A stretch of DNA of 42,930 nucleotides, taken from Pseudoxanthobacter soli DSM 19599 (GTDB taxonomy: Bacteria > Pseudomonadota > Alphaproteobacteria > Rhizobiales > Segnochrobactraceae). Below the pieces are notes generated by a model. It worked only from the letters and a program-made list of their open reading frames with translations, did not search any database and was not told where the DNA came from. The stretch is taken from assembly GCA_945898215.1 (NCBI GenBank), contig CAMDHY010000025.1, forward strand, positions 1 through 42,930. Direction: 5' to 3'. The translations under genes were made by a program, and so were the position numbers. Of this stretch, positions 3,269-42,887 are shown one piece after another. How positions within the stretch are numbered: position 1 is the stretch's first letter; each line of letters begins with the position of its first letter.

Positions 3269-5140
3269 GTGAACACGCAACCGACCCATCGCCCGATCCC
3301 CGCCGAGACTGTCGAGCGCGTGCTCGCCCGCCTCGGCGAACGCTCCGTCGTGCTCGTCGGCATGCCCGGCGCCGGCAAGTCGACCATCGGCCGTCGGCTC
3401 GCGAGCCTCCTCAGGCTGCCCTTCGTCGACGCCGACCACGAGATCGAGCGCGCCGCGGCGATGACCATCCCGGAGATCTTCGAGAAGTTCGGCGAGGCGG
3501 AGTTCCGCGAGGGCGAGAAGCGCGTCATCGCCCGCCTGCTCGAGGGCGGCCGGCAGGTGATCGCCACCGGCGGCGGCGCCTTCATGGCCGAGGAGACGCG
3601 CGCCGCCGTCCGCGCCCGCGCCGTCTCGGTCTGGCTGAAGGCCGACGTCGAGACGCTGATCGGCCGCGTCCGCCGCAAGTCGAACCGGCCTCTCCTCGCC
3701 GGCGCCGACCCGGAAGGCGCGCTGCGCCGCCTGCTCGCCGCCCGCGAGCCCGTCTACGCCACCGCCGACGTCACCGTGCAGTCGCGCGACATCGCCCACG
3801 ACGACGTCGTCGCGGCGCTGCTGGCGGCCCTCGCCCGGCCGACGGCGGCGGGTGCCACCGAGATTCCCGTCGAGACGGTCTCCCCCCCGACGATCGCTGC
3901 CGAGACGATCGCTGCCGAGATGGTTCCTGCCGAGATCGACACCACACCCCCTCACCGTCACGGCGGAGAAGCCCCGATGACCATCGCCACCGCGCTCGCC
4001 GCCGCCCCCGCCGGCGCCGCCGCCCGCGAGACCGTCACCGTCGGCCTCGGCACCCGCGCCTACGACATCCTGATCGGCCGCGGCCTCGACGCCGGCGCCG
4101 AGATCGCCGCGCGCTTCCCGGGGGCGCGCGCGAGCATCGTCACCGACACGACGGTGGCCGACCGCCACCTCGCCGCCTTTTCCGACAGCCTCGAGGCCGC
4201 CGGCCTCGAGCCGCACGCCATCATCGTCCCGCCGGGGGAGGGCTCGAAGAGCTTCCGCGGCCTCGAGACCGTCGTCGACGGCCTGCTCGAGGCGCGCCGC
4301 GAGCGCGGCGACCTCGTGGTCGCGCTCGGCGGCGGCGTCATCGGCGACCTCGCGGGCTTCGCCGCCGGCATCGTGCGGCGCGGCATGCGCATGGTGCAGG
4401 TGCCGACGACGGTGCTCGCCCAGGTCGATTCCTCCGTCGGCGGCAAGACCGGCATCAACGCGCCCCAGGGCAAGAACCTCGTCGGCGTCTTCCACCAGCC
4501 GAGCCTGGTGCTGGCCGACCTCGACCTCCTCGCCACCCTGTCGGAGCGCCACCGCCGCGCCGGCTATGCCGAGATCGCCAAGTACGGCCTGATCGACGAT
4601 CCGGGCTTCTTCGCCTGGCTGGAGGAGCACGGTGCCGACGTCGTGGCGCTGGGCGACGGCCTCGCCCACGCGGTGGCGACGAGCTGCCGGGCGAAGGCGC
4701 GCGTCGTCGCCGCCGACGAGCACGAGACCACCGGCGCCCGTGCCCTCCTCAATCTCGGCCACACCTTCGGCCACGCGCTGGAGGCCGGCACCGGCTACGG
4801 CGATCGCCTCGTGCACGGCGAGGCGGTGGCGCTCGGCATGGCCCAGGCCTTCCGCTTCTCCGCCGCCCGCGGCCTCTGCTCGCCCGAGGACGCGGCGCGG
4901 GTCGAGCGCCATCTGCGCGCGGTCGGCCTGCCGACGCGGCTGTCCGACGTGCCGGGCGGGCTTCCCGACGACGAGGCGCTGCTCGCCCTGATGGCGCAGG
5001 ACAAGAAGGTGGTGCGCGGCAGGCTCGTCTTCGTGCTCGTCACCGGCATCGGCGGCGCCTTCCTCGCCCGCGACGTGCCGGTCGAGGCGGTGCGCGCGTT
5101 CCTCGCCGAAGAGCGGTCGGGGGAGGAGGCGCGCCGGTGA
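3269..5140 (+). CDS. aroKB: Bifunctional shikimate kinase / 3-dehydroquinate synthase (AroK-AroB fusion)
   Basis: One uninterrupted frame of 623 residues holds two shikimate-pathway enzymes. Residues ~20-200 are shikimate kinase: Walker A G-M-P-G-A-G-K-S-T (31-39), D-A-D substrate motif, F-R-E-G-E arginine and a G-G-G-A-F loop. Residues ~245-610 are 3-dehydroquinate synthase: G-G-G-V-I-G-D-L NAD site, V-D-S-S-V-G-G-K-T-G, and the metal-binding E, L-V-H-G-E and G-H-T-F-G-H residues. AroB makes 3-dehydroquinate from DAHP; AroK phosphorylates shikimate. The genes are adjacent but separate in most relatives. The GTG start at 3269 has an AGGGA site ~11 bases upstream. An internal ATG at 3977 with GGAGAA upstream could also yield free AroB. 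The linker contains a three-copy 15-base repeat. Confidence 0.93.
   Translation: MNTQPTHRPIPAETVERVLARLGERSVVLVGMPGAGKSTIGRRLASLLRLPFVDADHEIERAAAMTIPEIFEKFGEAEFREGEKRVIARLLEGGRQVIATGGGAFMAEETRAAVRARAVSVWLKADVETLIGRVRRKSNRPLLAGADPEGALRRLLAAREPVYATADVTVQSRDIAHDDVVAALLAALARPTAAGATEIPVETVSPPTIAAETIAAEMVPAEIDTTPPHRHGGEAPMTIATALAAAPAGAAARETVTVGLGTRAYDILIGRGLDAGAEIAARFPGARASIVTDTTVADRHLAAFSDSLEAAGLEPHAIIVPPGEGSKSFRGLETVVDGLLEARRERGDLVVALGGGVIGDLAGFAAGIVRRGMRMVQVPTTVLAQVDSSVGGKTGINAPQGKNLVGVFHQPSLVLADLDLLATLSERHRRAGYAEIAKYGLIDDPGFFAWLEEHGADVVALGDGLAHAVATSCRAKARVVAADEHETTGARALLNLGHTFGHALEAGTGYGDRLVHGEAVALGMAQAFRFSAARGLCSPEDAARVERHLRAVGLPTRLSDVPGGLPDDEALLALMAQDKKVVRGRLVFVLVTGIGGAFLARDVPVEAVRAFLAEERSGEEARR
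3890..3934 (+). repeat. 15-base tandem repeat (three copies) in the AroK-AroB linker
   Basis: Units at 3890-3904 and 3905-3919 are identical (ACGATCGCTGCCGAG). A third unit at 3920-3934 is diverged (ATGGTTCCTGCCGAG). They encode T-I-A-A-E, T-I-A-A-E and M-V-P-A-E. This looks like recent slippage-type expansion of a low-constraint linker. Confidence 0.85.
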
Positions 5141-6486
5141 GCGTCCTCGAGATCTGGCTCACCGCCGGCGGCATCCTCGGCCTGCTCGCCTGTTCGTTCT
5201 TCTTCTCCGGGTCCGAGACGGCGATGACCGCCGCCTCGCGCTCGCGCCTGCTGCAGATCGAGAAGGGCGGCGACCGCCGCGCCGGCGTCGTCTCGCGTTT
5301 GATCCAGTCGCGCGAGCGGCTGATCGGGGCGCTGCTCCTCGGCAACAACATCGTCAACATCCTCGCCGCCTCGCTCGCCACCTCGATGCTGCTCGCCCTC
5401 TTCGGCGAGCGCGGCGTCGCCTACGCGACGATCGGCATGACGGTGATGATCGTGGTGTTCTCCGAGGTGCTGCCGAAGACCTGGGCGATCGCCGATCCCG
5501 AGCGCTTCGCGCTGGCCGTCGCCCGGCCGATCCGCATCGTCGTCGCCGTGTTCGGCCCGGTGACGATGGCGGTCGAGTTCCTGGTGCGCAACCTGCTGCG
5601 CGTCTTCGGCGTCAACGTCGACGACAAGACGGCCATCCTCTCGGCCCACGAGGAACTGCGCGGCGCCGTCGACCTGCAGCACCTCGAAGGCGGCCTCGTG
5701 AAGGTCGAGCGCGACCGCATCGGCGGCCTGCTCGACCTCGCCGAGCTCGCCGTCTCCGACGTCATGGTCCACCGCACCGCCATCCAGTCGCTCGACGCCG
5801 ACGAGCTGCCCGAGAAGATCGTCGAGAACGTCCTGAAGAGCCCGCACACCCGCCTGCCGCTGTGGCGCGGCCAGCCGGAGAACATCGTCGGCGTGCTGCA
5901 CGCCAAGGACCTTCTCCGCGCGCTCGCCGCCGTCGGCGGCGACGTGGCCCGCCTCGACCTCGCCACCATCGCGACGCCGCCCTGGTTCGTGCCCGACACG
6001 ACGAGCCTCGTCGACCAGCTCGCCACCTTCCTGAAGCGCAAGAGCCACTTCGCCCTGGTCGTCGACGAGTACGGCGAGGTCCAGGGCCTCGTCACGCTGG
6101 AGGACATCCTGGAGGAGATCGTCGGCGACATAGCCGACGAGCACGACCTCGTGGTGCAGGGCGTCCGCCCGCAGGCCGACGGCTCGGTGGTGGTCGACGG
6201 CACGGTGCCGATCCGCGACCTGAACCGGGCGCTGGACTGGCGACTGCCGGACGAGGAGGCGACGACGGTGGCCGGCCTCGTCATCCACGAGGCCCGCATG
6301 ATCCCGGAGGAGCGCCAGGCCTTCACCTTCCACGGCTTCCGCTTCCAGGTCCTGCGCAAGGACCGCAACCGCGTGGCATTGCTGAAGGTGACGCCGCTCG
6401 GGGCGGGCGTGGTGGTGGCGCCTGCGCCGGCCCCGCCTGCATCGCCGCCGGCACCCCCGGCACCGCCGGCGCGCGTGATGGGGTGA
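5137..6486 (+). CDS. HlyC/CorC (CNNM) family transporter with DUF21 and CBS domains
   Basis: Encodes 449 residues. The N-terminal ~190 residues form a DUF21/CNNM membrane domain with about four hydrophobic segments and the conserved S-G-S-E-T-A motif at ~25. Two CBS domains follow (roughly 205-330, with V-V-D-E-Y-G-E and L-E-D-I-L-E-E-I-V-G-D-I), then a C-terminal transporter-associated domain. Members are linked to magnesium or divalent-cation efflux; the substrate here is not shown. The C-terminus is an unusual Pro/Ala-rich tail. The GTG start overlaps the aroB stop by four bases (GTGA) and has a strong GGGAGGAGG site, so translation is probably coupled to the fusion gene. A second, soluble CorC-type paralogue lies at 38105. 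Confidence 0.92.
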   Translation: MSVLEIWLTAGGILGLLACSFFFSGSETAMTAASRSRLLQIEKGGDRRAGVVSRLIQSRERLIGALLLGNNIVNILAASLATSMLLALFGERGVAYATIGMTVMIVVFSEVLPKTWAIADPERFALAVARPIRIVVAVFGPVTMAVEFLVRNLLRVFGVNVDDKTAILSAHEELRGAVDLQHLEGGLVKVERDRIGGLLDLAELAVSDVMVHRTAIQSLDADELPEKIVENVLKSPHTRLPLWRGQPENIVGVLHAKDLLRALAAVGGDVARLDLATIATPPWFVPDTTSLVDQLATFLKRKSHFALVVDEYGEVQGLVTLEDILEEIVGDIADEHDLVVQGVRPQADGSVVVDGTVPIRDLNRALDWRLPDEEATTVAGLVIHEARMIPEERQAFTFHGFRFQVLRKDRNRVALLKVTPLGAGVVVAPAPAPPASPPAPPAPPARVMG

Positions 6487-41034: not shown

Positions 41035-41442
41035 ATGGCCAGCAAGAAGTCCCCCAACCCGATCGATACGCACGTCGGCAGTCGCGTGCGCATGCGCCGC
41101 ATGATGCTCGGGATGAGCCAGGAAAAGCTCGGGGAAAGCCTGGGAATCACTTTCCAGCAGATCCAGAAGTACGAGAAGGGCACCAACCGCATCGGGGCGA
41201 GCCGCCTCCAGCACATCGCCACGGTGATGCAGGTCCCGGTCGCCTACTTCTTCGAGGACGCGCCGACGACGCCGAGTGACACGCCCGCCGGCTTCGCCGA
41301 GGATCGCCCCGGCGCCTATGTGACGAGCTTCCTCACCTCCACCGAGGGTCTCGCGCTCAACCGCGCCTTCGTCCGCATCAAGAACCCGCAGGTGCGGCGG
41401 CGCATCGTCGATCTCGTCGAGTCGTTCGCCGACGCCGGCTGA
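41035..41442 (+). CDS. XRE/HTH regulator, PraR-like
   Basis: Encodes 135 residues. The helix-turn-helix (V-R-M-R-R-M-M-L-G-M-S-Q-E-K-L-G-E-S-L-G-I-T-F-Q-Q-I-Q-K-Y-E-K-G-T-N-R-I) is followed by V-P-V-A-Y-F-F-E-D-A and a less conserved C-terminal half. It closely resembles rhizobial PraR/PhrR-type regulators, which control quorum sensing, biofilm and surface genes in Rhizobium and often lie just upstream of metK. The ATG at 41035 has GAGGA about ten bases upstream; two earlier ATG/GTG-type starts would add 6-16 residues not usual for the family. Own promoter likely at 40840. Confidence 0.9.
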   Translation: MASKKSPNPIDTHVGSRVRMRRMMLGMSQEKLGESLGITFQQIQKYEKGTNRIGASRLQHIATVMQVPVAYFFEDAPTTPSDTPAGFAEDRPGAYVTSFLTSTEGLALNRAFVRIKNPQVRRRIVDLVESFADAG

Positions 41443-41480
41443 AGTCCCCTCTTCCGTCCAGCCTGTCTGTCCGTTCCCCC

Positions 41481-41498
41481 CGCCGGCCGAGGCCGGCG
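41481..41498 (+). terminator. Hairpin after the PraR-like gene
   Basis: CGCCGGC and GCCGGCG pair around a CGAG tetraloop (41481-41498), flanked by C- and G-runs that could extend the stem. There is no U-tract. Confidence 0.45.
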
Positions 41499-41557
41499 AC
41501 GGGGCGGTGTCGTCTGTGCGCCGGGCGGTTCGGGTGGGCGATCTGCCATCGCTGGGA

Positions 41558-41595
41558 GTTCAAGATATAAAGATAGCTTTATATCCGACTTGAAC
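41558..41595 (+). promoter_or_regulatory. AT-rich palindromic operator upstream of metK
   Basis: The inner palindrome GATATAAAG-ATAG-CTTTATATC (41564-41585) is perfect over 9-bp arms. Outer arms GTTCAAG (41558-41564) and CTTGAAC (41589-41595) are also perfect. It is by far the most AT-rich sequence of the region. A possible promoter (TTGAAC 41590-41595, 17 bases, TATTGG 41613-41618) overlaps its right arm, as expected for repression. It resembles, from memory, operators of ArsR-type SAH/SAM-responsive regulators of methionine genes. Confidence 0.75.
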
Positions 41596-41628
41596 GCCCC
41601 CCGCGGTTGATCTATTGGACGGGGGGCG
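41595..41628 (+). promoter_or_regulatory. Second inverted repeat in the metK leader
   Basis: CGCCCCCC (41595-41602) and GGGGGGCG (41621-41628) form an 8-bp stem with an 18-base loop. It could be a leader hairpin. The loop does not match the conserved cores of the SAM riboswitch classes I can recall. Confidence 0.35.
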
Positions 41629-41708
41629 CCGCGCGTGCGGTGCCCGTGTTTCGGCGCGCCGTCGGCGCGGCTCGAACGCCGTCAGCAATCGCGGGGGAGC
41701 TGCTCGCC

Positions 41709-42887
41709 GTGTCCCGTCAGAACTATCTGTTTACGAGCGAATCCGTCTCTGAGGGTCACCCGGACAAGGTCTGCGACCGCATCTCGGACACCGTCGTCGA
41801 CGCATTCCTCAGCGAGATGCCCGAGGCGCGCGTCGCGTGCGAGACGCTCGCCACCACCAATCGCGTCGTCATCGCCGGCGAGGTGCGCGGGCCGGAGACG
41901 ATCACCGGCGACTACCTCGCCCACCTGACGCGTCTCGCCATCCGCGACATCGGCTACGAGCAGGACGGCTTCCACTGGAAGACCGCCGACATCGCCGTGC
42001 ACCTGCACGCGCAGTCGGCCGACATCGCCCAGGGCGTCGACGCGGCCGGCAACAAGGACGAGGGTGCCGGCGACCAGGGCATCATGTTCGGCTATGCCTG
42101 CCGCGAGACGCCGGACCTGATGCCGGCGCCGATCTACTACGCCCACAAGATCCTGAAGGTGCTGGCCGACGTCCGCAAGTCCGGCCGCGAGCCGGCTCTC
42201 GGTCCGGACGCCAAGAGCCAGGTGACGGTCGCCTACGAGAACGGCCGGCCGGTGCGCGCCACCCAGATCGTGCTGTCCACCCAGCACCTCGACGAGGCCC
42301 TTTCGTCGGCCGACGTGCGCAACATCGTCGAGCCCTACATCGTCGCCGCCCTGCCGGAAGGCTGGACCGGCAAGGAGACGAAGTGGCACGTCAACCCGAC
42401 CGGCAAGTTCGTCATCGGCGGACCTGACGGCGACTGCGGCCTCACCGGCCGCAAGATCATCGTCGACACCTACGGCGGTGCCGCCCCGCACGGCGGCGGC
42501 GCCTTCTCCGGCAAGGACCCGACGAAGGTCGACCGCTCCGCCGCCTACGCCGCGCGCTACCTCGCCAAGAACGTCGTCGCCGCCGACCTCGCCGACCGCT
42601 GCACGATCCAGCTCGCCTACGCCATCGGCGTCGCCGAGCCGCTCGCCGTCTATGTCGACCTGCACGGCACCGGCAAGGTGGAAGAGGCGAAGATCGAGAA
42701 GGCGGCGCGCGAGGTGATGAACCTGACGCCGCGCGGTATCCGCGAGCATCTCGGCCTCAACCGCCCGATCTACGCCCGCACCGCCGCCTACGGCCACTTC
42801 GGCCGCCAGCCCGAGGCCGACGGCGGCTTCTCGTGGGAGAAGACCGACCTCGTCAAGGATCTGCGCAAGGCGTTCGGCGCGCGTTGA
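41709..42887 (+). CDS. metK: S-adenosylmethionine synthetase
   Basis: Encodes 392 residues. Conserved MetK motifs: [13 protein letters not shown] at the start (ATP and Mg), [12 protein letters not shown], and the P-loop-like [14 protein letters not shown]. It makes SAM from methionine and ATP in the cytosol. GTG at 41709 gives the standard N-terminus [11 protein letters not shown] and has GGGGGAG at about ten bases; an upstream ATG at 41607 adds a 34-residue leader that no MetK has. The preceding leader carries an AT-rich operator and a hairpin, so feedback regulation is likely. It is probably followed by trmB. Confidence 0.97.

Follow-up and report, generated by a model that had tools for sequence, protein, structure and literature searches.

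The locus raises the question of what controls metK, the gene for methionine adenosyltransferase, in Pseudoxanthobacter soli DSM 19599: a protein that binds in front of the gene, or an RNA element in its leader. Two features of the window (the whole stretch of DNA analysed, 42,930 nucleotides) are needed at the outset.

41565..41584, + strand: predicted SahR box (22 bp with the flanking G/C, 41564-41585), from pattern, repeat and matrix score
41709..42887, + strand: metK, methionine adenosyltransferase, from TIGR01034 and three Pfam domains

An AT-rich palindrome in front of metK

The 20-bp core of the palindrome is ATATAAAG-ATAG-CTTTATAT (41565-41584), and with the flanking G and C the site forms a perfect 9+9 inverted repeat, GATATAAAG/CTTTATATC (41564-41572/41577-41585), with ATAG between the halves. 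When up to three mismatches were allowed, the core pattern occurred once in the window and in 0 of 100 shuffles, and the GC content over the palindrome was 0.375-0.425 (two 40-nt windows) against 0.725-0.85 directly outside. On these two grounds, the AT-rich palindrome described in an earlier note on this DNA is genuine. The same note placed metK downstream of it, and this was borne out by the match of the product to TIGR01034 (498 bits, cut-off 309). The start of metK was chosen by eye as the GTG at 41709, 124 nt downstream of the inverted repeat.

Recurrence of the box at ahcY and sahR

The 4.78-Mb, 97%-complete genome was searched with the palindrome pattern, allowing up to three mismatches. 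Three places were found: metK (no mismatch), position 33373 of contig C3 (one mismatch) and position 15278 of contig C73 (two mismatches); a reversed control pattern gave one match per strand in the same genome. The earlier note had pointed to metH, metF, ahcY and ArsR-type regulators as genes where the palindrome might be met again, and it does recur at ahcY and at a sahR-metF-metH operon. The C3 box lies upstream of ahcY (TIGR00936, 609 bits over 498). At C73, the box extends over the start codon of sahR, an ORF of 343 aa with an ArsR-type HTH at residues 28-72 and a methyltransferase domain at 167-263 (Pfam HTH_5 plus Methyltransf_11). The HTH scored 51.9 bits with PF01022 and 80.2 bits with NF033788 (cut-off 55); none of the library models that matched is named SahR, and the top NCBIfam model is that of a general ArsR subfamily. 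On C73, sahR is followed by metF (TIGR00676) and then by metH in two ORFs, the labels of ahcY, metF, both metH halves and metK being those given by NCBIfam/Pfam.

A SahR regulon of Proteobacteria was reportedly described by Novichkov in 2014. The published regulon, as far as the parts of the paper seen go, has a 20-bp palindrome and the targets sahR, ahcY, metH, metF and metK (PMC4239095). All the core targets are covered in the present genome by the boxes at ahcY and metK and the one that heads sahR-metF-metH, and the regulator's own gene bears a box, as expected of this regulon. SahR is the most likely identity of the C73 protein, judged from its domain layout, operon and box. Two motifs were at least 95% invariant across 30 SahR proteins: QSQPR-SRHL in the HTH and, in the methyltransferase fold, the loop GTGTGR, which we take to be SAM/SAH-binding. 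Among 27 PDB sequence matches (E <=1e-5), each covered one domain or the other, and no solved structure spanning both was found.

Two side observations concern this operon. The metH gene is split into a homocysteine-binding part (L004 2250-3326, 358 aa) and the remainder (3382-6048, 888 aa). The sahR box lies over the sahR start codon (L003 1501-1520), which suggests a very short or leaderless sahR mRNA.

The box in related genomes

Strong matches to SahR, here those with E below 1e-60 (a cut of our own), were present in 54 of 61 genomes of the order. A box matrix was derived from 29 sahR boxes, none of them from the own genome, and with it the metK, ahcY and sahR boxes of the own genome scored 29.9, 24.7 and 30.1 bits. 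The threshold of 13.5 bits, also our choice, was the highest score among 1160 first-order resampled upstream regions. Among the 54 sahR loci retrieved, 51 had the box (the sahR region of G028 is absent from this sample). The first 30 loci, which served to find the motif, all had it with at most three mismatches, and 21 of the 24 further loci scored above the threshold, the exceptions being L198, L207 and L220, the last a second SahR-like copy in G039 that has no box and was excluded from the geometry below.

At ahcY, the box exceeded 13.5 bits in 48 of 57 genomes (G046, with 9.9 bits, was counted as boxless). It was found in 47 of 52 genomes with sahR and in 1 of 5 without (one-sided Fisher p 0.0015, a value that overstates independence because the genomes are related). 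In each of the two other genomes of the same family, G001 and G002, there were exactly three places (at most three mismatches), at sahR, ahcY and metK.

The metK loci gave fewer boxes. In all, 57 genomes contributed 58 scored loci, G026 having two copies (G004, G011 and G018 lie outside the set, and G034 gave no metK match), and 8 of the 58 exceeded 13.5 bits: those of the three genomes of the window's family, of G007 and G057 (both of family f6) and of G025, and with weaker boxes those of G024 and G009. All eight genomes also have sahR. Below the line yet over 5 bits were L020 (12.8), L176 (11.0) and L019 (7.3). With 8 of 58 loci boxed, metK is therefore no constant SahR target and its control is patchy. 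At sahR and ahcY, by contrast, the box is almost constant. The box itself, its three SAM-cycle sites, the regulator gene and the conservation in relatives are direct observations of this analysis.

Next to the site lies a gene for another DNA-binding protein.

41035..41442, + strand: small XRE-type HTH gene (PF01381), upstream neighbour of metK, not tied to the box

Its position makes the product a conceivable ligand of the palindrome and regulator of metK. This is very improbable, given that an XRE-type gene adjoins metK in 26 of the 30 relatives' loci, most of them boxless, that L024 has the box but no XRE-type gene, and that the palindrome tracks sahR and ahcY instead. The neighbour was rejected as the regulator, since the gene occurs without the box.

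Named metK loci were also inspected, as the best 80 of at least 589 candidates (GTDB), a set from which the own genome is possibly absent. The box was found in 9 of these best 80 (of at least 589), eight of them from Rhizobium/Agrobacterium/Shinella and one from an uncultured alphaproteobacterium. As a separate observation, an XRE-type gene adjoins metK in 46 of the best 80 (of at least 589).

The predicted metK promoter and the repeats around it

41558..41564, no strand: left arm GTTCAAG, complement of the -35; lacking in both G001 and G002 and so not conserved
41590..41595, + strand: predicted -35, TTGAAC (within the right arm of the earlier note), kept in G001 and G002 and at the ahcY offset
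41595..41628, no strand: 9-bp GC stem, probably not regulatory, not kept and of ordinary frequency
41613..41618, + strand: predicted weak -10, TATTGG, by eye and by analogy with ahcY

TATTGG lies 17 nt past TTGAAC, and transcription would be expected, by eye, to start near 41625. A strict consensus promoter scan called no promoter at metK. The motif CTTGAAC is kept 3-5 nt past the box in G001 and G002. Further evidence came from ahcY, where a TTG stands 24-26 nt from the box start in 46 of 48 regions and at exactly 25 in 35, the distance also found at metK here; in 40 of the 48, this TTG is joined by TA[TA] 16-18 nt beyond the hexamer. After 1000 shuffles of the bases downstream of the ahcY boxes, the maximum at any one offset was 6. 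The ahcY layout therefore supports the -35/-10 reading at metK. As a minor observation, five or six consecutive C are found in the predicted promoter spacer of all three family genomes (41597-41602 here; L007 and L008).

The earlier note regarded the perfect arms on either side of the core as part of the operator. GTTCAAG (41558-41564) and CTTGAAC (41589-41595) are indeed perfect complements (10 of 11 if extended), so their complementarity stands. The operator role does not, as the left arm is missing in both relatives and the right one reads as the -35. The arms are also off-centre on the core, the left abutting it and the right following after a 3-nt gap (41586-41588). Of 42878 places in the window, 78 are the start of a comparable pair (11-nt arms, at least 10 pairs, gap 10-30 nt), and the arms alone are therefore weak evidence. 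The arms were rejected as operator halves, the left one not being conserved in G001/G002. GTTCAAG mirrors the -35 in the own genome but in neither G001 nor G002, and no -10 of a mirrored minus-strand promoter was seen by eye.

The stem that the earlier note proposed as a possible second layer of control in the leader found no support. It has 9 bp (41595-41603/41620-41628) and not 8. A perfect 9-bp stem with a gap of 3-30 nt begins at 47 of 42882 places in the window, and no matching arm was observed at the corresponding position of G001 or G002, whose equivalents fold weakly. It spans the spacer, the -10 and the predicted start, so that the transcript would hold one arm only, the other lying upstream of the predicted start. 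The stem was rejected as a regulatory element, being neither kept nor unusual in frequency.

These results bear on whether the palindrome and the GC stem might instead act at the RNA level, as a leader structure or as a riboswitch not yet described. Both stretches can fold as RNA, with -12.9 kcal/mol for 41558-41596 and -20.7 for 41595-41628 (energies without a shuffled control). However, an Rfam covariance scan of 41300-41900 in E-value mode (E up to 10) gave no SAM or SAH family; its four matches were all far under their gathering scores, the best being Giardia U1 with 19.6 against 100 bits. Nor was a terminator-like site found, the stem is not kept in G001/G002, and the copies of the box at ahcY and across the start codon of sahR have a different loop. 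Control by RNA is thus extremely unlikely, and a riboswitch at metK was rejected for want of any support from Rfam, in line with the earlier note, which had seen no riboswitch core. Of the outcomes that the note had named as contrary to its proposal, those that concern sequence are a palindrome unique in the genome and a riboswitch match; the palindrome has three places, and Rfam gave no riboswitch at metK. The SAM-SAH model gave no match in the own genome, where its controls were likewise silent. The one SAM_alpha riboswitch of the genome (80 bits, C40, L278 1501-1578) lies before metZ, the gene for O-succinylhomoserine sulfhydrylase; this points to RNA control for metZ and to protein control, as predicted, for the SAM cycle.

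Predicted control of metK by SahR

The boxes are those of a SahR regulon and no riboswitch was found at metK by Rfam, which makes the protein SahR the most likely controller of the gene. We estimate at about 0.8 the probability that SahR, encoded elsewhere in the genome, uses the palindrome as its operator at metK, with repression relieved by S-adenosylhomocysteine (SAH). The proposal of the earlier note, protein control plausibly by an ArsR-type SAH sensor encoded elsewhere, gains support from the box at ahcY and from the ArsR-methyltransferase gene found with metF and metH. SahR binding, repression and SAH as the ligand are transferred by analogy from published SahR work. According to this model, SahR (contig C73), an ArsR-type winged helix predicted to be fused to a SAM/SAH-binding methyltransferase fold, would bind in its ligand-free form to the box beside the metK promoter and keep transcription low. 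A build-up of SAH would release it from the box, and metK, ahcY and the sahR-metF-metH operon would then go up together and the SAM cycle run faster. This would assign metK control in the lineage to a named, though predicted, SAH sensor, and the riboswitch question for metK is answered as far as Rfam allows.

Regulator, motif and target are already known, and the metK box here is a new instance of a known circuit. It resembles the SahR regulon, in the parts seen of PMC4239095, in its 20-bp palindrome, its ArsR-family regulator and its sahR/ahcY/metF/metH/metK targets, and differs in having only three sites and a fixed layout against the promoter. The SahR sites predicted in Ensifer aridi (PMC8877191, seen in part) agree at sahR, ahcY, metH and metK, with a similar sahR length, whereas its bhmT site was not found here. 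SamR of Xanthomonadales is an ArsR-type relative of SahR that controls metK, but by its description in the parts seen of PMC4239095 it is set apart by a 24-bp motif and its restriction to Xanthomonadales. The SAM-SAH riboswitch of Rhodobacterales metK also ties the gene to SAM/SAH; it is, however, an RNA element and was not detected here, the controls for its model in the own genome also being silent.

Position of the box relative to the promoter

A simple blocking repressor most commonly binds elsewhere than upstream of the -35, where the box is found at metK and ahcY. At sahR, the geometry was taken from 50 of 53 loci (L198 and L207 are boxless in the stretch used and the L204 box is at its edge). 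A TTG stands 19-21 nt ahead of the box start in 28 of these 50 boxes, which would therefore place the -10 (TAAAGA) inside the box; the same spacing occurs in 0 of 48 ahcY and 0 of 17 metK regions, and a TTG at 24-26 in 7 of the 50 sahR boxes. Control windows of equal width gave 0-6 of 50 (sahR), 0-5 of 48 (ahcY) and 0-6 of 17 (metK). The position of the SahR box thus differs between the two genes: it precedes the -35 at ahcY (46/48) and surrounds the -10 at sahR (28/50). At metK, the TTG stands at 24-26 in 5 of 17 boxes, at 29-31 in 8 (all Rhizobiaceae-like, about 5 nt further from the -35 than here) and at neither in 4; the 17 include L150, L155 and L158, near-copies of L190. Given controls of up to 6 of 17, the metK data alone are therefore not strong.

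These positions suggest an alternative to plain blocking, in which SahR would block at sahR and act at metK and ahcY through RNA polymerase, by activation or by masking a UP-like AT-rich site for alpha-CTD. UP elements lie at about -41 to -60, which is where the box would be at metK and ahcY. The tight box-to-TTG spacing at ahcY, matched by the 25 nt at metK here, and the different layout at sahR, with the -10 in the box, are consistent with this idea. We nevertheless hold it to be unlikely. The ahcY promoters look strong unaided (40/48), unlike typical activator-dependent ones, the two metK spacings are half a helical turn apart, the metK control windows reach 6 of 17, and the published view of SahR is one of repression. 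Likewise, the more general proposal of two SahR modes set by box position, blocking at sahR and polymerase contact or alpha-CTD-site masking at ahcY and, in some lineages, at metK, is tentative and rather doubtful. If it were true, a single sensor could produce graded responses, or even opposite ones.

One box at two positions relative to the promoter offers a testable SahR promoter grammar across the order. The passages seen of PMC4239095, PMC8877191 and PMC5343134 contained no mention of where the box lies with respect to the promoter, and the two-position layout is presented without claim of priority. The centre of the box was ATAT in 44 of 51 sahR boxes, and AAAT or ATTT in 25 of 48 ahcY boxes.
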